From Actinomyces viscosus (GTDB lineage Bacteria; Actinomycetota; Actinomycetes; Actinomycetales; Actinomycetaceae), in the NCBI RefSeq assembly GCF_900637975.1, contig NZ_LR134477.1, positions 1,922,001 to 1,986,000 of the forward strand: a stretch of 64,000 nucleotides of DNA, written 5' to 3'. The notes below the pieces were generated by a model, which made no database searches, was not told the DNA's origin, and saw nothing but the letters and a program-made list of their open reading frames with translations. A program made the position numbers and the translations under genes. This document shows, one piece after another, positions 4,732-36,600 of this stretch (position 1 is its first letter; each line of letters opens with the position of its first letter).

Positions 4732-5982
4732 TGGAGTTTAAACGAGATTATTTTGTGAGTCGGTAGGGGAACTTGTTTGCCTGGATGAAGGTCTCGAATG
4801 CTTGTCGGGTTTGGGGGAATGTGGCTCTTTGGTGGTTGCTGATACTGTCCTTTGCTTCTTTCCAGACGTGCTCGATGGGGTTCTCGTCGGGGCTGTAGGC
4901 GGGTAGGTTGATCAGGTGGATCCTCTCGAGGTTCTTGATGGTCTTGAGGCTGTTTGTGAGCTTTGCTGAACGGTGCCAGGAGGCGTTGTCCCACACGATG
5001 ACGATCTTCTTCTTGTCGGGGTGCTTCACGGTCAGGTCGATCAGGGCCTGGGTGATGGTGCCGGTGTCCTGCCAGTCGAGGGTCATCAAGTCGACGGTGC
5101 CGTCGGTCTCGTGCAGGAAGCCGATGTAGGACTGGGCCTGGCGGCGGCGGTCGACCTCCAGGCGGGCGGCGTCCCCCCGGCGGATCCACGCCCTGCGCAC
5201 GATCGCCTCGTGCTCGATACGCACCTCGTCGGCGCACACCACCATCACCTCGGGATCGGACCACTTGCGGACGATCTCGGAACGGATCTGGCTCATGCGC
5301 TGGTCAACGTCCGCCTGGGGCGGGCGGCGCTGGTCAACGGTCTGGGGGCGGTGGAAGGACAGGCCCGCCATGTGCAGCAGGAACCGGTAGGAGGCGGCAG
5401 AGGCGTACTCCACCTCGAAGTGGTCGTAGACCCAGGCCGCCAGATGGGGCACGTCCCAGAACCCGATGGGCAGGCCCTGCTCCGACGGGGGCCGGGACAG
5501 TACCCCGGCCACCTCCTGGCGCTGGGTGGCGGTGAGCCTGGAGGCGTTGAGGTTGCCGGCGTGACCGGTGTGGATTGAGGCCAGGCGGTACCGGTTCCAC
5601 TCCCGAGCCCAGCTGCGCACCGTCTCGGGCGTGCGCTCGACGACCTGGGCCACGACCGCGGTATCCACACCCTTGGACAGCAGCACGACCGCCTCGGACT
5701 TCAAACGCATCAACCTGTAAGGCGCCTGGTGCTTATAGCCCTGCAAAACAGTCCACTCATCATCACTAACCACGACCCTGTCCATCCCAGCATGATATTC
5801 CGCCCTCGACCCGAGAGCTCACACGAAACGCCGACAACACAAGAGACGACAACAAAAGAAGCCAGCACCAGCAGCCAAGCACCCCACGAGAAAGCGACAC
5901 CCCCACATCGGACGCCCCACGAATACCCGATCACCAACCCAACAACAAAACCAGCAACACGAATCTTGTTTTAATCACACTA
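4729..5982 (-). mobile_element. IS630-family element, copy 1 (1254 bp)
   Basis: Matches 7675-8928 throughout, with no difference noticed. Ends are imperfect inverted repeats: TAGTGGAGTTTAAACGAGATT at the left and TAGTGTGATTAAAACAAGATT when the right end is read inward. With these limits the flanking duplicated dinucleotide is TA (4727-4728 and 5983-5984), the hallmark of IS630/Tc1-mariner insertion, and excision restores a sensible 3' end for the toxin gene. A 190-bp non-coding stretch separates the transposase start from the right end. The element carries one gene. Confidence 0.85.
4748..5785 (-). CDS. IS630-family transposase (copy 1)
   Basis: 345-residue DDE transposase that would cut and rejoin its element at TA sites. 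An N-terminal helix-turn-helix is visible (VVAQVVERTPETVRSWARE). The catalytic triad lies in ADEVRIEH (about residue 190), VWDNASWH (about 268) and PDENPIEHVW (about 300), the standard IS630 DDE arrangement. Length is normal and no lesion is visible, so it is probably functional. An apparently identical protein is encoded at 7694-8731. Confidence 0.92.
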   Translation of the reverse strand: MDRVVVSDDEWTVLQGYKHQAPYRLMRLKSEAVVLLSKGVDTAVVAQVVERTPETVRSWAREWNRYRLASIHTGHAGNLNASRLTATQRQEVAGVLSRPPSEQGLPIGFWDVPHLAAWVYDHFEVEYASAASYRFLLHMAGLSFHRPQTVDQRRPPQADVDQRMSQIRSEIVRKWSDPEVMVVCADEVRIEHEAIVRRAWIRRGDAARLEVDRRRQAQSYIGFLHETDGTVDLMTLDWQDTGTITQALIDLTVKHPDKKKIVIVWDNASWHRSAKLTNSLKTIKNLERIHLINLPAYSPDENPIEHVWKEAKDSISNHQRATFPQTRQAFETFIQANKFPYRLTK

Positions 5983-7712: not shown

Positions 7713-8928
7713 GGGAACTTGTTTGCCTGGATGAAGGTCTCGAATGCTTGTCGGGTTTGGGGGAATGTGGCTCTTTGGTGGTTGCTGATACTGTCCTTTG
7801 CTTCTTTCCAGACGTGCTCGATGGGGTTCTCGTCGGGGCTGTAGGCGGGTAGGTTGATCAGGTGGATCCTCTCGAGGTTCTTGATGGTCTTGAGGCTGTT
7901 TGTGAGCTTTGCTGAACGGTGCCAGGAGGCGTTGTCCCACACGATGACGATCTTCTTCTTGTCGGGGTGCTTCACGGTCAGGTCGATCAGGGCCTGGGTG
8001 ATGGTGCCGGTGTCCTGCCAGTCGAGGGTCATCAAGTCGACGGTGCCGTCGGTCTCGTGCAGGAAGCCGATGTAGGACTGGGCCTGGCGGCGGCGGTCGA
8101 CCTCCAGGCGGGCGGCGTCCCCCCGGCGGATCCACGCCCTGCGCACGATCGCCTCGTGCTCGATACGCACCTCGTCGGCGCACACCACCATCACCTCGGG
8201 ATCGGACCACTTGCGGACGATCTCGGAACGGATCTGGCTCATGCGCTGGTCAACGTCCGCCTGGGGCGGGCGGCGCTGGTCAACGGTCTGGGGGCGGTGG
8301 AAGGACAGGCCCGCCATGTGCAGCAGGAACCGGTAGGAGGCGGCAGAGGCGTACTCCACCTCGAAGTGGTCGTAGACCCAGGCCGCCAGATGGGGCACGT
8401 CCCAGAACCCGATGGGCAGGCCCTGCTCCGACGGGGGCCGGGACAGTACCCCGGCCACCTCCTGGCGCTGGGTGGCGGTGAGCCTGGAGGCGTTGAGGTT
8501 GCCGGCGTGACCGGTGTGGATTGAGGCCAGGCGGTACCGGTTCCACTCCCGAGCCCAGCTGCGCACCGTCTCGGGCGTGCGCTCGACGACCTGGGCCACG
8601 ACCGCGGTATCCACACCCTTGGACAGCAGCACGACCGCCTCGGACTTCAAACGCATCAACCTGTAAGGCGCCTGGTGCTTATAGCCCTGCAAAACAGTCC
8701 ACTCATCATCACTAACCACGACCCTGTCCATCCCAGCATGATATTCCGCCCTCGACCCGAGAGCTCACACGAAACGCCGACAACACAAGAGACGACAACA
8801 AAAGAAGCCAGCACCAGCAGCCAAGCACCCCACGAGAAAGCGACACCCCCACATCGGACGCCCCACGAATACCCGATCACCAACCCAACAACAAAACCAG
8901 CAACACGAATCTTGTTTTAATCACACTA
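7675..8928 (-). mobile_element. IS630-family element, copy 2 (1254 bp)
   Basis: Apparently identical to 4729-5982, implying a recent duplication or gene conversion. The right flank is TA but the left flank is TG, so the expected TA duplication is absent with the same limits that fit copy 1. The flanks come from different genes: immunity-gene sequence on the left, SMI1/KNR4 tail on the right. This suggests a deletion adjoining the element after insertion. If instead the limits are drawn two bases inward, a simple insertion into one composite frame is possible. Confidence 0.85.
7694..8731 (-). CDS. IS630-family transposase (copy 2)
   Basis: Same 345-residue DDE transposase as at 4748-5785, with ADEVRIEH, VWDNASWH and PDENPIEHVW intact. 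Direct orientation relative to copy 1 makes the 2.9-kb segment between them (Imm1-like gene and NS_2 effector remnant) a target for deletion by homologous recombination. Confidence 0.92.
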   Translation of the reverse strand: MDRVVVSDDEWTVLQGYKHQAPYRLMRLKSEAVVLLSKGVDTAVVAQVVERTPETVRSWAREWNRYRLASIHTGHAGNLNASRLTATQRQEVAGVLSRPPSEQGLPIGFWDVPHLAAWVYDHFEVEYASAASYRFLLHMAGLSFHRPQTVDQRRPPQADVDQRMSQIRSEIVRKWSDPEVMVVCADEVRIEHEAIVRRAWIRRGDAARLEVDRRRQAQSYIGFLHETDGTVDLMTLDWQDTGTITQALIDLTVKHPDKKKIVIVWDNASWHRSAKLTNSLKTIKNLERIHLINLPAYSPDENPIEHVWKEAKDSISNHQRATFPQTRQAFETFIQANKFPYRLTK

Positions 8929-14290: not shown

Positions 14291-16057
14291 TCAGGCGCGG
14301 GGCCTGAGGGAGTTGAGGACCAGGACGGTGGTGGCGGCGCGGGTGCTCAGCGAGGCGTAGGGGTTGTCCTGGTCGGGCCAGCCGGTGAAGTGCTCGTCGG
14401 TGTAGGCGCCCCAGACCGGTCCGGGGAACAGGGGGATGACGGGCAGCTGGTCGGCGTAGCGCTGCTGGATCTGGTGGCAGATCGCGATCTGCCGGGTCTG
14501 GTCGGTGGTGGCGGCGAACCGGCCCAGGAGCTCGGTGGCTTGCTCGTCGCCGAAGCGGTGGTAGTTCTCCAGGGCGTGGGTGCCGATGGGCTTGACCTTC
14601 TGGGTGCTCATGGCCGACTCGTAGTAGGTGTACGGGGTGGCGCCCAGCGAGGACCAGCACACGGCGGTCTCGAAGGTGCCGGTCTCCAGGGCGGCCGTGA
14701 CCTCGTTCCAGTCCGGTGAGTCGATGGTGGCGCTGATGCCGACGTCGGCGAGGTTCTGGACGATGATCTGGGCGACGCTCAGCCAGTCCGACGACGTCGA
14801 GCCCACCTGGATCGTCAGGGCCAGCGGCTTGCCGTCCAGGCCCAGGCGCTTGGAGCCGGACCCGAGGGTGTAGCCGGCGGCGTCGAGGGCGGTGGCGGCG
14901 GCGGCCTTGTCGTAGGTGCACAGGTCCAGGGCGGCCACGGCCGGGTCCTTCCAGGCCTGGAAGCTCTCGCTCAGGCCGGTGGGGTCGGCGGGCTGGGCGT
15001 AGCCCGACATGCCGGTGGCGCAGATGGTCCTGCGGTCGATGGCCCGGCTGAGGGCCTTGCGGAAGGCGGGGTCGTTGTAGGGGGCCCTGGTGGTGTTGAG
15101 GGTCCACTGGATGGTGGAGTCGGCGCCGGGGAACCAGTAGTGGCGGTGGCGGGGGTCCTTGTCGACGTAGGCGGTCTGGATGTCGGCCATGTACTGGGGC
15201 GCCCAGTCGACGTCGCCGCTGACGGCGGCCAGGTTGGCGCTGTCGTTGCCGGCGAAGGCCAGCATGCGGATGCCGGGGACCGAGGTAGGGCTCGCAGTGG
15301 CGCTCGGTGTGGGACTCGGTGAGGCGCTCGGGGCGGGAGCGCCGGCGTCGTCGGCGTCGTCGTCCTGGCGGCTGTTGCCCCAGTAGGTGGGGTTGGGCAT
15401 GAGGTCGAAGGACTGGGCCTGGAAGCCGGTGACCCGGGTGAAGGGGCCGGTGGCGACGGGGTCGGGGTTGGGGAACTTGGCGGGCTCGGAGATGGTGGAC
15501 CACACGTGGTCGGGGGCGATGAGCTGGCTGCCGAGCTCCTGCAGGGCGATGGAGTAGGGGCGAGTGAAGGTGAGGGTCGCGGCGGTCGAGCTGGTGGCGG
15601 TGACGGTGTCGAGGTAGTCGTAGCCGCCGGTGACGGCGCGGTGGACGGCGAAGGTGGTGACGACGTCCTTGGCGACCAGCGGCCTGCCGTCGGACCAGGT
15701 GACGCCGGGGCGCAGGTGGAAGGTGAGGGAGGTGGCGTCGTCGGCCATCGCCCAGGACTCGGCGAGCCAGGGGGTGATCTCGCCGTTGAGGGGGTTGACG
15801 ATGAGGAGGGGCTCGTAGACGGCCTGCCCGGTCATGGGGGCGCTGTTGGTGGTGAAGGGGTTGAAGTTGCGGGTGAAGGTGCCCATGTCCTCGCGCGGGA
15901 CGGTCAGCAGGCGCGGGCCGTCAGAGCTCTTGGAGCAGCCGGAGACGGCCAGGAGGGCGGCGAGGGCCCCGGCGGCGCCGCCGGCCAGGGCCTGACGGCG
16001 GGAGGGTCCGGTCCTGCGCGGTGAGACCGGTGAGACCGGTGAGATCTCAGCGGGCAC
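14291..16057 (-). CDS. ABC transporter substrate-binding lipoprotein (SBP_bac_5)
   Basis: 588 residues, start GTG 16057 with AAAGGA upstream. Twin-arginine-like signal (SRRQAL) and lipobox LAVSGC (Cys at about 41) predict a membrane-anchored lipoprotein. The lobes are in normal order: EITPWLAESW and VTWSDGRPLVAKDV early, PLALTIQVGSTSSDWLS in the middle, QLPVIPLFPGPVWGAY near the end. The ligand could be a peptide or a beta-oligosaccharide; the latter fits relatives of cello-oligosaccharide binders but is not proven. An Asp and Ser/Pro/Thr/Ala-rich insertion of about 35 residues follows YWGNSR and probably loops out. Confidence 0.9.
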   Translation of the reverse strand: MPAEISPVSPVSPRRTGPSRRQALAGGAAGALAALLAVSGCSKSSDGPRLLTVPREDMGTFTRNFNPFTTNSAPMTGQAVYEPLLIVNPLNGEITPWLAESWAMADDATSLTFHLRPGVTWSDGRPLVAKDVVTTFAVHRAVTGGYDYLDTVTATSSTAATLTFTRPYSIALQELGSQLIAPDHVWSTISEPAKFPNPDPVATGPFTRVTGFQAQSFDLMPNPTYWGNSRQDDDADDAGAPAPSASPSPTPSATASPTSVPGIRMLAFAGNDSANLAAVSGDVDWAPQYMADIQTAYVDKDPRHRHYWFPGADSTIQWTLNTTRAPYNDPAFRKALSRAIDRRTICATGMSGYAQPADPTGLSESFQAWKDPAVAALDLCTYDKAAAATALDAAGYTLGSGSKRLGLDGKPLALTIQVGSTSSDWLSVAQIIVQNLADVGISATIDSPDWNEVTAALETGTFETAVCWSSLGATPYTYYESAMSTQKVKPIGTHALENYHRFGDEQATELLGRFAATTDQTRQIAICHQIQQRYADQLPVIPLFPGPVWGAYTDEHFTGWPDQDNPYASLSTRAATTVLVLNSLRPRA

Positions 16058-17150: not shown

Positions 17151-18025
17151 GAAGGTTATTCAGGGGTTGGTGTAGGCGTAGAGGGCTAGGGTGGCTGTGA
17201 TAGTTTCTTTGAAGGTGTGCAGGGGGCGCCTGTAGTCGTGGGCCAGGATCTTCCAGGATTTGATGTGCGCGATGGTTCTCTCCACGACATACCGGATTTC
17301 ATTTAGGGATTTGTTGGCCTGCTTCTGGGCCTTGGTGAGCTCACTGTTGGGAGGTTTCTTGTAGGGGGTGAGAACCCCGGTTCCGATGTAGCCTTTATCG
17401 GCGATGCAGCAGGAGGGGTCGATCTCCTCCAAGAGACCGGAGGTGGTGATGGCCTTGGTGTCGTGGGTGGCCCCCGGTAGCGGGTCTGAGGCCCACCGCA
17501 GGCGCCCGGCGGGGCTGACCAGCACTTGCAGGCTCAGGCCGGTGCGCTTGTGCTTGCCCGACCACAGGTCCGTCCGATCCTTCCAGCTCCAGCACGGCAG
17601 GAGCGTACCGTCGATGATGTGCACGCCCCCATGGGGGACCTCCTCGACGGTCGCCAGCACAGGCCCCAAGACCCTGGCGATGATCCGGGTGACCACCGAG
17701 ATCGCCCGCGAGATCGTCGGCTGTGACACCCCCATGATCTCGGCGATCGCCTCCTGGGAGGTGTTGGTGCGCAAATACATCAACGTCGCCCGCACCGCGG
17801 CCAGTGGGCCAAGAATTCTTGGCGCCAAGGAGATCTCAGTATCACCCAGCACCATTTCCACCAGGCAGCTCAACTGCGTTCTGTCCAGGCCTGTGATACC
17901 CTTACCCATGACGGCTCGTTCCTGAGAGGTTTCATGTAGCAATCTGATTCTCTCAGACCAACGAGCCGTCACCCATTCAACACACCGAACCCCTAAACCC
18001 CCATACACGCCCCTGAATAACCTTC
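17151..18025 (-). mobile_element. IS5-family element, apparently intact (875 bp)
   Basis: Bounded by perfect 16-bp inverted repeats GAAGGTTATTCAGGGG (17151-17166 and, inverted, 18010-18025) and a 3-bp target duplication GAT (17148-17150 and 18026-18028). Contains a single transposase gene. Intact ends, a clean duplication and an open gene suggest recent and possibly active insertion. Confidence 0.92.
17160..17910 (-). CDS. IS5-family transposase (DDE_Tnp_4 type)
   Basis: About 249 residues from ATG 17910 (GKGITGLDRTQLS), chosen because AGGA lies 12 bases upstream; an in-frame ATG at 18008 would add 33 residues reaching into the terminal repeat. An N-terminal helix-turn-helix (TSQEAIAEIMGVSQPTISRAI) precedes the nuclease core: HIIDGTLLP (first Asp), IADKGYIGTG (second Asp) and the terminal RYVVERTIAHIKSW (Glu), the order seen in DDE_Tnp_4/HARBI-like transposases. 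Confidence 0.9.
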
Positions 18026-29145: not shown

Positions 29146-29868
29146 TCACAGGAGCACCGTGACAGCCACGATCGCGACGGCGAGCACTCCGGCGACGACG
29201 GCGACCAGCCGGTTGAGGCTGCTGGTCACGCCGGCCACCGTGTCGGCCGCCGCGCCTGCCGCTGCGTCAGCCGCCGCATCCGCAGGGTCGCCACGTTGGC
29301 TGCGCACCTGCTCGGCATAGGCGGTGATGAGGGCCCCGGCGTCGCCGGCGTCGAGGTTGGTGCGGTGGTTCCCCTCCCCCGTCAGGTACTCCGGGCGCAC
29401 CACTGCGGCCGGAACCGTCTCGGAGCCCCGAAGCCCGTCGTGTCGCTCCTGCTGCTCGCGCAGCATCTGGCGGCGTCGGAAGGCCTCGGCCATCCCACCG
29501 CGGCGGGGTGCGGCCGAGGCTCTGACCTCCACGTCATCGGACGTGATGACGGAAAGTCCCCAGCGGGTGCGGCACATCTCGACCTCGTCCCAGCCCAGCA
29601 CGTGGGTGCGCCAGGCGTTGCGGATGACGAGGGCCTGAGGGCTCAGGGTGATCTGCGGCGCCCACCACAGCAGCCAGGTGAGGAAGGACAGCAGGCTCGC
29701 CCAGACCAGGGCGCTCAGGCCGCGGGCGGGGCCGTCGGCGAGCCCGATCGTCAGGGCCATCGCCGGCGAGGCGACGGCGATGAGGGCGGTCCCGAGGCGG
29801 GCCGGCAGGGAGCGGATGACGACGGTGGGTGCGACAGTGGGCACGGGCGCATCATGCCCGCCGTTCAC
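29146..29868 (-). CDS. Membrane-anchored PH-like protein
   Basis: 240 residues, start GTG 29868 overlapping the stop of the ATPase gene (GTGA), so translationally coupled to the ABC operon. Two N-terminal membrane helices (ALIAVASPAMALTIGLA; LSFLTWLLWWAPQ) precede a bPH-type beta domain (ITLSPQALVIRNAWRTHVLG, WDEVEMCRT), then an Arg/Glu-rich stretch and a C-terminal tail anchor (LVAVVAGVLAVAIVAVTVLL). Common actinobacterial architecture of unknown function. Confidence 0.75.
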   Translation of the reverse strand: MNGGHDAPVPTVAPTVVIRSLPARLGTALIAVASPAMALTIGLADGPARGLSALVWASLLSFLTWLLWWAPQITLSPQALVIRNAWRTHVLGWDEVEMCRTRWGLSVITSDDVEVRASAAPRRGGMAEAFRRRQMLREQQERHDGLRGSETVPAAVVRPEYLTGEGNHRTNLDAGDAGALITAYAEQVRSQRGDPADAAADAAAGAAADTVAGVTSSLNRLVAVVAGVLAVAIVAVTVLL

Positions 29869-31760
29869 ACCTCCGCCGCCTTGTCCGCCGCCTCGTCGCC
29901 GTAGAGGTCGATGCCCGCACCGGGCACGGCCCGGATGAGCTCGCGGGTGTAGTCCTGGCGCGGCGAGGCGAAGAGCTCGTCGGCCGCCCCGGCCTCGACG
30001 ATCCGGCCGTGCTCCATGACGACGACGTCGTCGGCGATCTGGCGCACGACGGCCAGGTCGTGGGTGATGAACAGGTAGGTCAGCTCCAGCTCGGACTGCA
30101 GCTCGGACAGCAGGCGCAGGATCTGGGCCTGGACCAGCACGTCGAGGGCAGAGACCGCCTCGTCGAGGACGACGATCTCCGGCTTGAGGGCCAGGGCGCG
30201 GGCGATGGCGACGCGCTGGCGCTGACCGCCGGAGAGCTCGTGGGGGTAGCGCCGCATGACCGAGCGCGGCAGGGAGACCATGTCGAGCAGCTCGGCGACG
30301 CGCTCCTCGCGCTCCTTGGCGGTGCCGATCCGGTGAACCCGCAGCGGCTCCTCGACGACGCGGAAGATCGAGTACATCGGGTCCAGGGAGCCGTAGGGGT
30401 TCTGGAAGACCGGCTGCATGATGCGCCGCAGGGCGAAGAGCTCCTTGGGTCCCAGGGTGGACAGGTCGACCCCGTCGTGGAACACCTTGCCGGAGGTGGG
30501 GTCGATGAGGTTGAGGATGATGTTGGCGACCGTGGACTTGCCGGACCCGGACTCGCCCACGAGCGCCGTCGTCGTGCCCTTGCGGATGCCGAAGGTGACG
30601 TCGTCGACGGCGGTGAGGGTCTTGTCGTTGCCCTTGGCTCCGCGGACCTCGAAGACCTTGGTGAGGTGCTCCACGCGCAGGATCTCCTCGGTGGAGGTCG
30701 CCCCGAGGCTGGCGCCCAGGAGCTCGTCGTCGGTGACCTGGATGCCGCGGGCGTGGGCGGACTCGATGCGGCGGGAGGCCAGGGAGGGGGCGGCCTTGAC
30801 CAGGCGCTGGGTGTAGGGGTGGCGGGGGTCCTGGAGGACCTCGAGGCTCGGCCCGGACTCCACGACGCGGCCGCGGTGCATGACGACGATGTGCTCGGCA
30901 CGCTCGGCGGCCAGCCCCAGGTCGTGGGTGATGAAGAGCATCGCGGTGCCCAGCTCGCGCACGAGGGTCTGGAGGTGGTCGAGGATGCGCCGCTGGACGG
31001 TGACGTCCAGGGCGCTGGTGGGCTCATCGGCGATGAGCAGGTCGGGGCGGGCGGCCAGTCCGATGGCGATGAGGGCGCGCTGGCGCATGCCGCCGGAGAA
31101 CTCGTGGGGGTACTGCTTGGCCCGTCTGGAGGCCTCGGGAAGGCCCGCCTGCTCCAGCAGGAGGGCCACCTGCTCGTCGACGTCGATGCGCCCGCCGACG
31201 GACGGGGCCGGTTTCTCGGTGTCTTTCCCGGCTTCGTCGGCGTGCTCAGTGTGCTCGGCGATGAGGTGGGCGAGGCGGTCGTCGGCGACGCCGGCCAGGC
31301 CGTTGGCCCTCAGCGCCTCCTTGACCTGGAAGCCGATGGACCACACGGGGTTGAGGTTGGACATGGGGTCCTGGGGCACCAGGCCGATGGAGGAGCCGCG
31401 CAGGGCAGTGAGTTCCTGGGGGCTCAGGTGGGTGATGTCGCGCCCCTGGAAGCGGATCGTGCCGCCGGTGACCCGGCCGGTTCCGGGAAGCAGTCCGATG
31501 ACGGCGTGGGCCATGGTGGACTTGCCGGAGCCGGACTCCCCCACGATGGCGACGGACTGTCCGGGGTAGAGGGTCAGGCCGGCCTTGCGCACGGCCGGGA
31601 CGAGTCCGGTCGAGGAGCGGAAGGCGACCTCCAGGTCGGTGATCTCCAGGAGCGGGTCGCTCGCCGCGTCCCAGGAGGCCGCGGGGGTGAAGCCCTTGTC
31701 AGAGCGGGCCGGGGCGCTGGCCTGGGTGCTGATCGATGAGGATGCGTTGGTCGGTGTCAC
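29865..31760 (-). CDS. Oligopeptide ABC transporter ATPase, fused double domain
   Basis: 631 residues, start GTG 31760. Domain 1: Walker A GESGSGKSTMA, signature FSGGMRQRALIAIGL, Walker B LLIADEPTSALD. Domain 2: GESGSGKSTVANIIL, LSGGQRQRVAIARALAL, IVVLDEAVSALD. The glycine-rich signatures and OppD/OppF C-terminal extensions (HPYTQRLVKAAPS; YTRELIRAVPGAG) support peptide import. The start overlaps the OppC-type permease stop by four bases (GTGA). Confidence 0.93.
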   Translation of the reverse strand: MTPTNASSSISTQASAPARSDKGFTPAASWDAASDPLLEITDLEVAFRSSTGLVPAVRKAGLTLYPGQSVAIVGESGSGKSTMAHAVIGLLPGTGRVTGGTIRFQGRDITHLSPQELTALRGSSIGLVPQDPMSNLNPVWSIGFQVKEALRANGLAGVADDRLAHLIAEHTEHADEAGKDTEKPAPSVGGRIDVDEQVALLLEQAGLPEASRRAKQYPHEFSGGMRQRALIAIGLAARPDLLIADEPTSALDVTVQRRILDHLQTLVRELGTAMLFITHDLGLAAERAEHIVVMHRGRVVESGPSLEVLQDPRHPYTQRLVKAAPSLASRRIESAHARGIQVTDDELLGASLGATSTEEILRVEHLTKVFEVRGAKGNDKTLTAVDDVTFGIRKGTTTALVGESGSGKSTVANIILNLIDPTSGKVFHDGVDLSTLGPKELFALRRIMQPVFQNPYGSLDPMYSIFRVVEEPLRVHRIGTAKEREERVAELLDMVSLPRSVMRRYPHELSGGQRQRVAIARALALKPEIVVLDEAVSALDVLVQAQILRLLSELQSELELTYLFITHDLAVVRQIADDVVVMEHGRIVEAGAADELFASPRQDYTRELIRAVPGAGIDLYGDEAADKAAEV

Positions 31761-32716
31761 TTGCGGGCCTTCGGGTCCAGGGCGTCGCGGACGACGTCGC
31801 CGAGCATGATGAAGCCGAGCACGGTCAGGGCCAGTGCGCCGGCGGGGAAGAGCAGGACGCTCGGGTGGCTGTTGAGGGCGTCCTTGGCGGCCGCGATGTC
31901 CGCGCCCCAGGAGACGACCGATGCGGGCAGTCCGATGCCCAGGAAGCTCAAGGTGGCCTCCGAGACGATGAAGACGCCGAGCTCGACGGTGGCGGTCACG
32001 ATGATGGGGGCGGCCGCGTTGGGCATGACGTGGCGCAGCAGCATGGCCATGCGCCCCGAGCCCAGGGCCCGGGAGGCGGTCACGTAGTCCTCGTTCTTGA
32101 CGCTCATGACCGAGCCTCGCGTGATGCGGGCGATCTGGGGCCAGCCGAACAGGGCCAGGACCAGGATGACGGTGAGGATCGAGCGGTCGTTGCGGAACAT
32201 CTGCATGACGACGATGGCCGCCAGGACGAAGGGCACGGCGAAGAAGATGTCGGTGACGCGCGAGAGCAGGGCGTCGAAGATCCCGCCGAAGAACCCGGCC
32301 AGCGCCCCGACGGCCGAGCCGACGAGGACCACGATGAGGGTGGTGAAGATACCGACGCTCACCGAGGCCCGGGCGCCGTGGACGGTGCGGGCGAAGATGT
32401 CGCAGCCCTGGATGTCGAAGCCGAAGGGGTGGGCCCAGGAGGGGCCCTGGTAGGAGTTGACCAGCGTGCAGTACCCGGGGTCCCGCGGGGCGATGAGGCC
32501 GGGGACCAGCGAGAACAGCACGGCGACGGCGATGAGCAGTGAGGCCGCCCAGAAGATGGGGCGACGGCGCAGCTGCCTCCAGGCGTCGAGCCAGACGGAG
32601 GCGGGGGCGGACTCGTCGGCGACGGCGTCGACGGCGCCCAGGCCGAGCTCGTCGTCCTGGCTGACGAAGCGCTCCTGCCCCGGGCGCGTGGTGGGGGACG
32701 TGATGTTCTCAGGCAT
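31757..32716 (-). CDS. Oligopeptide ABC transporter permease, OppC type
   Basis: 319 residues from ATG 32716. A soluble N-terminus of about 50 residues precedes helix 1 (FWAASLLIAVAVLFSLVPGL), the conserved HPFGFDIQGCDIFARTVHGA, five further helices, and the ATPase-docking loop TASRALGSGRMAMLLRHVMPN. Ends LGDVVRDALDPKARK, typical for OppC/DppC. Its start overlaps the stop of the OppB-type gene by eight bases. Confidence 0.93.
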   Translation of the reverse strand: MPENITSPTTRPGQERFVSQDDELGLGAVDAVADESAPASVWLDAWRQLRRRPIFWAASLLIAVAVLFSLVPGLIAPRDPGYCTLVNSYQGPSWAHPFGFDIQGCDIFARTVHGARASVSVGIFTTLIVVLVGSAVGALAGFFGGIFDALLSRVTDIFFAVPFVLAAIVVMQMFRNDRSILTVILVLALFGWPQIARITRGSVMSVKNEDYVTASRALGSGRMAMLLRHVMPNAAAPIIVTATVELGVFIVSEATLSFLGIGLPASVVSWGADIAAAKDALNSHPSVLLFPAGALALTVLGFIMLGDVVRDALDPKARK

Positions 32717-33638
32717 AGCGGATCCTCGGGTCCAGGGCGGCGTAGAGCAGGTCCACCAGGAGGTTGGAGATGATGAAGACGAGCACGAGCACGGTCGTGA
32801 AGGACACGACCATGGGACCGTCGCCGCGGATGATGGCGGAGTAGAGGGTGCCTCCCACGCCCTTGATGTTGAAGATGCCCTCGGTGACGATGGCACCACC
32901 CATGAGGGCGCCCAGGTCGGCGCCCAGGAAGGTGACCACCGGGACCAGGGAGTTGCGCAGGACGTGGACGATCATGACGCGGGCCCCGCTCAGGCCCTTG
33001 GCGCGGGCGGTGCGCACGTGGTCGGCGGTGAGGTTCTCGGCGACCTCGGTGCGGGTCAGGCGCAGCACGTAGGCGAAGGAGACGGCGCCCAGCACCATGG
33101 CCGGCATGAGGAGCTCGGTGAAGCCGGGGCTCTCGCCGGCGGTCACGGGCAGCCACCCCAGGCGGACCCCGATGATGAACTGCAGGACGAAGCCGATGAC
33201 GAAGGTGGGCACGGCGATGACCACGAGGGAGAGCACCAGGACGGTGGCGTCGAACCAGCCGCCCTTGCGCACCCCGGCGATGAGGCCGAAGCCGATGCCC
33301 GCGACGGCCTCGAAGGCCAGGGCCATGAGGGAGAGCTTGATGGTGATCGGGTAGGCCCGCACCAGCACGTCCAGGACGGACTCGGTTCCGCGCAGCGACT
33401 GGCCCAGGTCCAGGGTGAGCAGTCCCTTGAGGTAGAGCAGGTACTGCACGATGAAGGGCTTGTCGAGGTGGTAGCTGGCCCTGATCTGCTCGATCACCTC
33501 GGGGCTGAGCGAGCGCTGGCCCCCGAGCGCGGCGATGGGGTCGCCCGGCAGGGCGAAGACCATCGCGTAGATGAGCAGCGTGGCCCCGAAGAACACCGGG
33601 ACCATCTGCAGCAGCCTGCGTGCGACGTAGCGAAGCAT
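32709..33638 (-). CDS. Oligopeptide ABC transporter permease, OppB type
   Basis: 309 residues from ATG 33638 with GGAGGAAG upstream. N-terminal MLRYVARRLLQMVPVFFG and the family motif VFALPGDPIAALGGQ. Six membrane helices and the docking loop RTARAKGLSGARVMIVHVLRN; ends LLYAALDPRIRYA. Nineteen bases after the stop of the binding-protein gene, so part of the same operon. Confidence 0.94.
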   Translation of the reverse strand: MLRYVARRLLQMVPVFFGATLLIYAMVFALPGDPIAALGGQRSLSPEVIEQIRASYHLDKPFIVQYLLYLKGLLTLDLGQSLRGTESVLDVLVRAYPITIKLSLMALAFEAVAGIGFGLIAGVRKGGWFDATVLVLSLVVIAVPTFVIGFVLQFIIGVRLGWLPVTAGESPGFTELLMPAMVLGAVSFAYVLRLTRTEVAENLTADHVRTARAKGLSGARVMIVHVLRNSLVPVVTFLGADLGALMGGAIVTEGIFNIKGVGGTLYSAIIRGDGPMVVSFTTVLVLVFIISNLLVDLLYAALDPRIRYA

Positions 33639-34236
33639 GTCTACTTCTTCCTCCCGATCAGAACTTTGAGATGGCCTCGGCCTGCGCCCACAGGCGCCGG
33701 GCCTCGTCGGGGTCGTAGGTGAGGACCTCGTTGCCCGGCACCTCGGCGGTCCAGCCCTCGACGGTGGGGGCGGTGAAGTCCTTGGCCGGTGTACGCGTGC
33801 CGTAGTAGAGCTTCTCGCAGATGAGGTTGCGGTCGATGGCCCGGCAGATGGCGGCGCGGCGGGCGCGGCCCTCCTCGTCCATCTTCCAGTGCTCGTGGGT
33901 GACGTCGATGGCCAGTCCCTGGAAGTAGGCGGCGGGCTTGTTGACGGCGCGGCCCTGGAGCTGCTCGCGGAAGGTGGGCAGGAAGGCGTCGGGGATGGAG
34001 TCGGTGATGTCGAGGACGTCAGCCAGCAGGTCGTTGTAGACCGAGTCATAGCTCGTGTACAGCTTGAAGGTAATGCCCTGGTTGGCCACGGTGCGCCCGC
34101 CGGCGTAGGCGGGGTTCGGCTCCAGGACGATCCGGCTGTCGTGGTCCCAGGAGACGAGCCGGTAGGGACCGTTGCCCACGGGCTTGGCCCCGTAGGCCTT
34201 GGTGTCGGCGAAGGCCGACTCGGGCATCGGGTAGTA

Positions 34237-35387
34237 TGGCCGGCATTAAACAAAGTTTCCTTCTGGGGTTGTGTTGTCGGGTGGTTTTGGGGGTATCGAT
34301 ATAGAATGTGTGTGTGGTTGTTGATGTGACTGCGGAGGAGCGGGATGTTCTTCTGGCGTGGAAGAAACGCGGTGACTCGTTCGTCCTGGTGCGTTTAAAG
34401 GCTGAGGCCATTTTGTATGCCTCTCGTGGTGTCGGCACGGGTGTTATCGCTGAGATGGTCGGCCGCAGCCGCAGGACGGTGAGCAACTGGCTGCGCCGCT
34501 GGCGGTGCTCCAGGTTGCACTCGGTTGTCACTGGGCACGCCGGCAACGAGAACGCCGCCAAGCTCACCCGCGCCCACAAGGAGCAGCTCAAGCGGATCCT
34601 GAGTAGGCCACCGGCCCAGAGCGGGATCAGGGCGGACTTCTGGGACGTACCGGCCCTGCGTGACGTGGTGCGGATCAAGTTCGGCGTGGAGTACGCCTCA
34701 GACTCCTCCTACCAGCTGCTCCTGCGCTTCGTGGGGATGAGCTTCAAGCTGCCCGACCCCTTCGACAAGCGCCGCGACGAGGCCGCCGTCACCGAGCGAA
34801 TGGACCAGGTCCGTCAGGAGGTCGCCGACCTGCTGGCCCGGGGCTGGGAGGTCTACACCGTCGACGAGGTGCGCGTCGAGCACGAGGCCGTCACCCGGCG
34901 TATGTGGCTGCCCACCGGCCGTCGGACCAAGATCTATGTCGACCGAGAACGCTCGGCCCAGTCTTTCTTCGGCGCCCTGAGCCTGACCAGCAAGCAGGTG
35001 CGCGTCTACCCCATCGAGGGCAACCAGAACGCCGAGCAGGTCACCCTGGCCCTGGCCCGTCTGGTACGCGAGACGGCAAACGACAAGATCGCTGTTGTTC
35101 TTGACAACGCCGGCTTCCACCACGCCAAGGCGGTCACTGACCTGTATGAGCCCGGCCAGGCCCTGGAGCGCGTCAGGCCGATCTACCTACCTCCTTACGC
35201 GCCCGACCACAACCCAATAGAGCACGTCTGGAACACCGCCAAGAAGAACATCTCAAACATACAACGAGACAACCCCGAGGAAACCTACACCGCATTCACC
35301 AGCTACATCACCAGCCGCACCTTCGACTACGACTTCGAGCACCTACCCATCACACCAACCCAAGAAAAGCTTGATTAAAGACCGCCA
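34237..35387 (+). mobile_element. IS630-family element, second type (1151 bp)
   Basis: Different from the 1254-bp elements at 4729 and 7675. Imperfect inverted ends TGGCCGGCATTAAACAAAG and TGGCGGTCTTTAATCAAGC, flanked by TA on both sides (34235-34236, 35388-35389). Removal with one TA restores the HYAYYPMPESAF reading frame of the binding-protein gene, so this is a simple, precise insertion. Transcribed opposite to the host operon. Confidence 0.92.
34308..35378 (+). CDS. IS630-family transposase (second type)
   Basis: 356 residues, possible ATG at 34308 or GTG codons just downstream. Helix-turn-helix region GVIAEMVGRSRRTVSNWLRR; catalytic motifs TVDEVRVEH, VLDNAGFHHA and PDHNPIEHVW. Only moderately similar to the transposase at 4748, sharing VEYAS, a HAGN motif and the C-terminal NPIEHVW. 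Open and probably functional. Confidence 0.92.
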   Translation: MCVVVDVTAEERDVLLAWKKRGDSFVLVRLKAEAILYASRGVGTGVIAEMVGRSRRTVSNWLRRWRCSRLHSVVTGHAGNENAAKLTRAHKEQLKRILSRPPAQSGIRADFWDVPALRDVVRIKFGVEYASDSSYQLLLRFVGMSFKLPDPFDKRRDEAAVTERMDQVRQEVADLLARGWEVYTVDEVRVEHEAVTRRMWLPTGRRTKIYVDRERSAQSFFGALSLTSKQVRVYPIEGNQNAEQVTLALARLVRETANDKIAVVLDNAGFHHAKAVTDLYEPGQALERVRPIYLPPYAPDHNPIEHVWNTAKKNISNIQRDNPEETYTAFTSYITSRTFDYDFEHLPITPTQEKLD

Positions 35388-36600
35388 TAGGCGTAGTGGC
35401 CCAGGCTGATCTTGAAGTCCGACGCCGGAGCGGTCAGCTCGACCGTGAAGGTGAGGTCATCCACCTTGGCCAGTCCGGTCAGCTCGGAGTCCTCGTCGTA
35501 GGAGAAGCCCTTGATCCGCTCGAAGAAGGAGGAGCCGAGCTGGGCGTTGGACAGCAGGGCTCCGAACTTCCAGGCCTTGATGAAGGAGTCGGCGGTCACC
35601 GGGCTTCCGTCGGAGAAGGTCCAGCCCGGCTTGAGGGTGATCGTGTAGTGCTGGTTGTCCGTGGTCTCGATGGAGGAGGCGACCTCGTTGATGACGTTGC
35701 CGTCCTTGTCATAGCGGACCAGTCCGGCGAAGACCAGGTCGAGGATCCGGCCGCCGTTGGACTCGTTGGTGTTGGTGGGCAGCAGGGAGTTCTGCGGCTC
35801 GGCGAGGTTGGACAGGATGACACCGCCGTTGGCGCTGGAGCTGGCCTCCTCGTAGACCGGGGTGCCGGTCCAGTTGAAGTCGACGTTGGAGGCGTTGCGG
35901 GAGTACCCGCCGAACCCGTTCTGGTACCACAGCGGGATGCCGGGCAGGTCGGCGAAGAGCTGGGTCTGGGCCTGACGGAAGTACCCGTAGGCGGTCTCGG
36001 GATCGGTGGCGGCCGCAGCCTGGGCCAGCAGGTCGTCGAAGGTCTTCGAGGAGTACTGGGTGTCGTTGGCGCTGGCGCCGGTCTGGAAGGTGGCGTTGAG
36101 GAAGTTCTCCAGCGAGGGGTAGTCGGCCGACCAGCCGGAGCGGAAGACGCCCAGGAGGGTGTGCTCGGTGATGGCCGAGCGCATCTCGGAGAACTGGGCC
36201 ACCGGCAGGGGCTCCATCGTGATGCCCAGGACGTTGGAGACCGAGTGGCACACCGCCTCGGCCCAGGTCTTGTGCGGGCCGTCGGAGTTGTAGGCCAGGG
36301 TCAGCTTGCCGCTGCCGCTGCCCAGGCCACCTCCACTCGAACTCGATCCGCGCGAGCATCCTGAGGCAAGGAGCAGGCCGAAGGCGGCCGCGCCGAGTCC
36401 AAAGCTGCGGCGCGACACTGTCAGAGCGTGGTTCATGCGACCTCCATGGGGCATGGAACTGACGAGGACCGTCATTGGGATATGGGGATGGAGGCGCGCA
36501 GGACGCTCGGGCTCCGCCCATGAGCGGAGATCCTACGTCCAACCAGGAAACAGAGTCGACACGTTGGTCACATGTAGGAGAATACGGAAAAATGACCTGC

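Follow-up and report, generated by a model that had tools for sequence, protein, structure and literature searches.

A circularly permuted gene for a probable peptide-binding lipoprotein in Actinomyces viscosus and recurrence of the permuted order among actinobacterial relatives

The window analyzed here, a 64,000-nucleotide stretch of Actinomyces viscosus (contig NZ_LR134477.1, positions 1,922,001 to 1,986,000), carries on its minus strand a gene for an SBP_bac_5 lipoprotein that runs from an ATG at 36436 to a stop at 33658, with one insertion sequence (IS) inside. From the ATG, the chain proceeds through a signal peptide and lipobox to the C-terminal segment (C), the N-terminal lobe (N), and the middle segment (M). 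This C-N-M order is not the canonical N-middle-C order of the SBP_bac_5 family, and the gene is a permuted variant of that family. Sequence comparisons confirm the circular permutation of an OppA/DppA-type lipoprotein proposed in an earlier, sequence-only reading of the window, because orthologues are intact with the same order and the same operon, trees point to a single origin within Actinomyces, and median ratios of nonsynonymous to synonymous substitution rates (dN/dS) in permuted genes are below 1. It is very probable that the gene encodes a permuted binding lipoprotein of a DppABCD-type importer, most likely one with the usual fold, and that such permutations arose at least four times in actinobacterial relatives.

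Permuted order and its conservation in Actinomyces

Both pieces of the gene left by the IS exceed the curated cutoff of PF00496 (32.4 bits) in a profile search, with 75.8 bits for the 5' piece and 109.6 bits for the 3' piece. The 5' piece (36436 down to 35388) contains the signal peptide, the lipobox Cys27, the C-terminal segment (aa 43-197), and the N-terminal lobe (aa 204-350); it gives two PF00496 stretches, the better of which places profile positions 2-95 at residues 248-349. The 3' piece (34236 down to 33658) corresponds to profile positions 106-277 and ends in ISKF followed by a stop, leaving a gap of 19 bases to the next ATG (33638). The parts of the gene are as follows.

36440..36445, minus strand: ribosome-binding site GGAGGT, 3 bases before the ATG at 36436 (sequence)
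36356..36436, minus strand: signal peptide with SRRSFG motif and lipobox Cys, aa 1-27 (sequence)
35846..36310, minus strand: displaced C-terminal segment of the binding protein, aa 43-197 (sequence comparison)
35828..35845, minus strand: joint of the ancestral C-terminus to the ancestral N-terminus, aa 198-203 (sequence comparison)
35388..35827, minus strand: N-terminal lobe, its 3' side cut by the IS (profile match and sequence)
33658..34236, minus strand: middle segment and new C-terminus, ISKF and stop (sequence and profile match)

The segment order in the sequence-only reading is borne out by both pieces and by unbroken orthologues that share the order and the operon, and the sequence agrees with what was said there of the ISKF terminus, lipobox, ribosome-binding site, and operon position. 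The IS-free product had been predicted to comprise 541 residues, which is the length of an intact orthologue (L032). GGAGGT-like motifs also lie upstream of the start in orthologues, and the signal peptide resembles those of normal-order Actinomyces genes.

Relatives are encoded at 51 named loci, 15 of which, all from Actinomyces, match almost the whole 5' piece as one stretch (among them loci of A. oris, A. naeslundii, A. johnsonii, A. israelii, A. massiliensis, A. gerencseriae, A. haliotis, and A. gaoshouyii). In every one of these 15 loci the frames follow the order C-N-M, with a late frame change in one (L036). Within the window's own family (coded f1), matches at 1e-15 occur in 137 of 213 genomes; in at least 29 of these, all of genus g1, a single block spans the joint, which excludes chance. 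Five genomes of this genus (G005, G012, G014, G017, and G065) have the normal order. The sequence-only reading had named orthologues with conserved permuted order as a check, and these one-block matches, together with the intact orthologues, rule out that the permutation is unique to the strain or an artefact. The window aside, 26 distinct permuted Actinomyces loci were read, of which 22 run unbroken from the lipobox to the end (the exceptions are L036, L120, L121, and L122). Once repeat loci are dropped, C-N-M occurs in one frame in 44 open reading frames (ORFs), all distinct in sequence, and N-M-C in 107 ORFs (105 distinct); the lipobox pattern is in frame in 40 of the 44 permuted genes, two others having a variant and two a signal peptide that is out of frame.

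The normal-order gene of A. oricola (L050) and the permuted gene at L032 occupy the same gene neighborhood, sharing six upstream genes as well as two permeases and an ATPase downstream. The gene at 14291-16057 of the window, offered earlier as a comparator, is indeed a normal-order SBP_bac_5 gene, but it is distant and falls outside the two own-genome matches to the 5' piece. In phylogenetic trees, the permuted Actinomyces genes form one clade beside the normal-order Actinomyces genes (97/99), and they also form one clade by their permeases (100/100, 22 rows), both consistent with a single origin within Actinomyces. The genes downstream in the window, assigned from sequence and operon, are listed here.

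32709..33638, minus strand: permease gene, next in the operon
31757..32683, minus strand: second permease gene, start approximate
29865..31760, minus strand: fused double ATPase gene

From operon position we take these to be DppB-like, DppC-like, and DppD/F-like, respectively. Permeases and an ATPase follow the gene in 29 of the 33 permuted loci examined, a count that excludes L190-L198. They are absent at L122 (G018), L123 (G072), and L141, and the sequence of L142 ends about 1 kb past the gene. In G018 and G072 the permuted gene is kept with other ORFs downstream, and the gene of G018 is split in frame.

The cut, the joint, and constraint on the protein

In normal-order Actinomyces proteins, ADAISPF is followed across the cut site by SGSFTIAYNSDG, and the chain ends in PLYYAITKA. 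In permuted Actinomyces proteins, the chain ends in AEAISKF and begins, after the lipobox and a linker, with SGGKLTLAYNSDG, and the old C-terminal tail leads into the old first strand. The span across the joint from a Trp to the EP or QP motif is 21 to 23 residues in all 44 permuted genes, counted from the nearer Trp in the three genes that have two. As judged from these alignments, the cut is nearly lossless and the joint has no spare length.

The nearest solved relative by sequence is DppA of Mycobacterium tuberculosis (Mtb; Rv3666c; PDB 6e3d, 7jls, and 8wd9), a protein of normal order to which the permuted profile aligns as two swapped blocks (E = 1e-171). Profile positions 208-545 correspond to residues 27-376 of the 7jls chain and positions 48-206 to residues 379-537, so that almost the full length of the chain is covered, with 2 residues unaligned at the cut; the homology of residues 43-196 to the C-terminal lobe, on which the sequence-only reading depended, is thereby upheld. 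Among the best 60 of 91 PDB sequence matches, no best stretch spans the whole permuted profile. The cut, between chain residues 376 and 379, is at about residue 380 of Mtb DppA (offset from W442/D445), and in the predicted model of a normal-order relative it falls between a helix (358-371) and a strand (378-383). The C-terminal half of Mtb DppA comprises residues 267-541 in the available text of PMC6751184, and this position rules out a cut at the crossing between lobes, where the new termini had been thought to lie. One gene, L199 (G1454; gene 633-2393), is cut elsewhere: its residues 190-575 correspond to residues 103-490 of L203 and its residues 84-188 to residues 498-602, which puts the cut about 45-52 residues further on and leaves roughly the first 45 C-segment residues at the chain's end.

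Purifying selection, a second check named in the sequence-only reading, is indicated by NG86 dN/dS medians of 0.135-0.219 for the permuted segments of the oris group (8 genes, 28 pairs) and of 0.329-0.441 for other permuted Actinomyces (9 genes, 36 pairs). Normal-order Actinomyces genes have medians of 0.247-0.291 (4 genes, 6 pairs), and the permease has medians of 0.096-0.165. The sample comprises 8 of 9 oris-group loci, 9 of 17 other permuted loci, and 4 of 5 normal-order Actinomyces loci, in six permuted and three normal sets. Permuted genes also keep most residues that are invariant in 11 other normal-order rows (N, 42 of 49; M, 40 of 48; C, 32 of 40; normal-order Actinomyces genes keep 38, 43, and 37, respectively), a residue counting as kept if 80% or more of the rows have it. 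Counterparts of the Mtb DppA pocket residues W442 and D445 (PMC6751184) are found by pattern in 42 (Trp) and 41 (Asp) of the 44 permuted genes.

The moved segment may have a history of its own. On a fixed topology, the permuted stem and that of the sister clade measure 0.361 versus 0.082 in C, 0.050 versus 0.133 in N, and 0.118 versus 0.079 in M; C alone has a long permuted stem, so this segment would either have changed fast on relocation or have derived from a diverged copy. If the latter, the C segment of the permuted Actinomyces genes came from a diverged tandem paralogue and the protein is a chimera, not a pure permutation, a reading also favored by the stricter set of residues invariant in 16 normal-order rows (kept in N at 31 of 36 positions and in M at 38 of 39, but in C at 26 of 36) and by two earlier C-only trees that did not group permuted with normal-order Actinomyces. 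The normal-order rows of the invariant-residue and stem-length counts exclude L059, L064, L071, L074, and L077. However, this grouping in C is not rejected (P = 0.476, with L071, L074, L077, L122, and L123 left out), the more widely sampled C tree recovers it (100/94), and faster change after relocation accounts equally well for the long stem. We regard the chimera as unlikely.

Operon position, the pocket Trp and Asp, the lipobox, purifying selection, and the narrow range of joint lengths argue for a working, folded peptide-binding lipoprotein. Its chain would start with the lineage's own signal peptide and a lipid-anchored Cys, continue with the last ~155 ancestral residues, and lead through the joint into what were ancestrally the N-terminal lobe and middle; the whole most likely adopts the usual two-lobed fold of binding proteins. 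The retained Trp/Asp pocket would bind peptides and pass them to an unchanged permease, the main difference being a membrane tether that probably acts through the C-terminal lobe.

Some of the evidence points away from a working protein. Besides the window copy, which is interrupted by the IS, 4 of 45 permuted loci (L036, L120, L121, and L122) look broken, and the gene may therefore be dispensable in places; in G018 and G072, the cognate permease finds only 25-26% matches genome-wide; and the highest dN/dS of any single pair among the other permuted Actinomyces is 0.855. AlphaFold2 gave the permuted protein low confidence, with a predicted local distance difference test score (pLDDT) of 43.3 and a predicted template modeling score (pTM) of 0.39, from a less diverse alignment: of its 14 other rows, 7 have 90% identity or more to the first. 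The normal-order relative, modeled from 12 more diverse rows, reached a pLDDT of 73.6 and a pTM of 0.69, with Mtb DppA as its best match; the permuted model neither supports nor refutes the fold. That the permuted genes are decaying relics or misassemblies is nevertheless highly improbable, given in-frame lipoboxes in nearly all of them, dN/dS medians below 1, an operon retained at most loci examined, and permuted order in at least 46 genomes of five families.

Recurrence, origins, and comparison with known permutants

The permuted order is not restricted to Actinomyces, an idea ruled out by one-block matches outside the window's family. A scan of the order (396 genomes) found such matches in G443, G276, G395, and G342 (three in the last), a scan of the class (394 genomes) added G807, and a scan of the phylum (296 genomes) gave no further one-block match at 1e-40. 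Permuted genes were then counted by family, in at least 3 of 37 matching genomes in f45 (130 searched), 2 of 6 in f20 (18 searched), 8 of 77 in f8 (180 searched), and 4 of 100 in f19 (199 searched), bringing the total for the five families, f1 included, to at least 46 of 740 genomes searched. Thresholds and queries differ among these scans, so all counts are lower bounds; for each of the 17 permuted genomes of f8, f19, f20, and f45, the complete segment order was established. A plasmid search returned five matching records, four of which cover most of the query, each in two pieces, and are therefore likely of normal order. G342 holds three diverged permuted copies (L140, L141, and L142), of which L141 has no adjacent permease and L142 lies near a contig end.

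Under broader sampling, the permuted genes do not group together. A 73-row tree requires 5 changes of order, 4 of them forced by starred branches, and a 65-row tree (24 permuted and 41 normal-order genes) requires 6, 5 of them so forced. In the 65-row tree, the permuted genes of Actinomyces, f45, f8, and the subset f19A (G276, G1506, and G1565) each sit on a starred branch together with genes of normal order from the same family code. Two Streptomyces loci with two binding proteins each, scored MNC (L066 and L069), were left out of the later trees. A single clade of all permuted genes is rejected (difference in log likelihood, 306; approximately unbiased [AU] test, P = 6e-47; L142, L074, L077, L071, and L123 left out of this test). 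The AU test also rejects joining the Actinomyces genes with f20 (7e-7), f8 (4e-27), or f8 plus f20 (2e-10), as well as the pairings of f8 with f19A (5e-9), f45 with f20 (7e-4), and f19A with L199 (0.02). Trees of single segments require 5 changes for N, 6 for M, and 6 for C. From these trees four origins (Actinomyces, f8 with or without f20, f19A, and f45) can safely be proposed; there would be five if the different cut of L199 marks a separate event, and five or six are likely.

Several results tell against so many independent events. The AU test does not reject one origin for f8 with f20 (0.515) or for L199 with f20 (0.519), and the separation of several other pairs, such as f45 from f8, f19A, or Actinomyces, rests on the tree. 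The normal-order gene of genus code g85 (L200) is not sister to the permuted g85 genes in the 65-row tree. The joints of f8, f19, f20, and f45 look alike (K-A/P-D/E-G), possibly a trace of one common origin that recombination has since obscured. For f20 and for f8 (one row, L139: N with f8 at 89/28, M with an f19 gene at 96/85, and C near f8 at 87/77), the segment trees are mixed, and slightly more weight was given for this reason to the alternative that one or a few ancient permutations spread by horizontal transfer, with recombination with resident normal-order genes overwriting the segments and keeping the joint. The sporadic distribution within families would also suit such transfer. Against it stand the rejection of one clade, the different cut of L199, and the segment trees for Actinomyces, f19A (one row), and f45, where, at varying levels of support, the permuted genes fall close to genes of normal order from the same lineage. 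Signal peptides, compared by eye, likewise look local (e.g., RLTRR in f45 and SRRxFG in Actinomyces, as in normal-order genes of the same lineages), and a normal-order gene would offer recombination at the joint no adjacent C end and N start. Transfer is accordingly considered very unlikely.

Returning to separate origins, the simplest mutational route would be tandem duplication, fusion, and trimming of both ends, since tandem arrays of binding-protein genes occur in relatives (seven copies at L133 and pairs at L187, L188, and L189). The seven at L133 are normal-order genes beside one permease set. The signal peptide still stands in front, so the first copy would have lost N and M and kept its start; the tandem duplication with loss of the outer halves suggested from sequence alone remains plausible. 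No double-length N-M-C-N-M-C intermediate was found among 189 loci, which counts against this route; the long frames of G417 (1113 codons), G523, and G432 each hold one normal-order set. It is doubtful, though conceivable, that permutation was adaptive and recurrent, with at least six events in situ at two cut sites that moved the tether from the N- to the C-terminal lobe and altered docking or opening toward the importer.

The closest precedent is a natural circular permutant described in another cluster of binding proteins, the Treponema pallidum lipoprotein TpMglB-2 (Tp0684), for which "Type Ic / Cluster Bc" was proposed (available text of PMC4990184). Like the present protein, it is a permuted binding lipoprotein of an ABC importer, and many species have homologues of it; one possible cause of the permutation that its authors put forward is tethering to the membrane (PMC4990184). 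In contrast, TpMglB-2 has a glucose-binding Type I fold with a changed strand order in the N-lobe and a moved part that can barely be aligned (13% identity; PMC4990184), whereas the protein described here belongs to SBP_bac_5, is cut in the C-terminal half, retains clear identity, has a normal-order sister at the same Actinomyces locus, and probably arose repeatedly. It therefore lies outside the TpMglB-2 class, which is defined by a Type I sugar-binding family and an N-lobe permutation. The earlier statement that no permuted relative is known thus holds for SBP_bac_5, for which no report was found in the open PMC literature, where TpMglB-2 alone was directly relevant, but does not extend to binding proteins of other clusters.

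For DNA methyltransferases and saposins, the proposed route of permutation consists of duplication, fusion, a new start, and a new stop (PMC2096629); here, by comparison, no fused intermediate was seen and the signal peptide remains in front. The present case differs from published permutants in family, cut site, and recurrence. How frequent natural circular permutation is remains an open question (PMC2096629), on which several permutations within one protein family bear. The recurrence provides an unusual natural experiment in rewiring proteins that are still kept, and permuted and normal-order genes at one orthologous Actinomyces locus supply matched proteins with which to study how the permutation came about, how far the fold tolerates it, and what moving the tether does. 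Annotation that is blind to domain order hides such proteins.

The insertion sequence in the window

The element that interrupts the gene is present in 10 identical full-length copies in the genome (one contig, 3.49 Mb), which indicates recent transposition. The other nine copies are at 3371660, 3242552, 3240949, 2185940, 2004451, 1508294, 1468868, 1358085, and 379821 of the same contig.

34237..35387, plus strand: insertion sequence, 1151 bp, with TA on both sides and imperfect terminal inverted repeats (sequence)
34308-35378, plus strand: transposase ORF of the IS, with a DDE_3 domain (profile match)

Pieces 68-80% identical to the IS lie in the window at about 4860-5570 and 7806-8516, probably belonging to a related element, and 15 places genome-wide hold pieces at this level of identity. 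A minus-strand ORF at 17160-18008 is presumably transposase-like.
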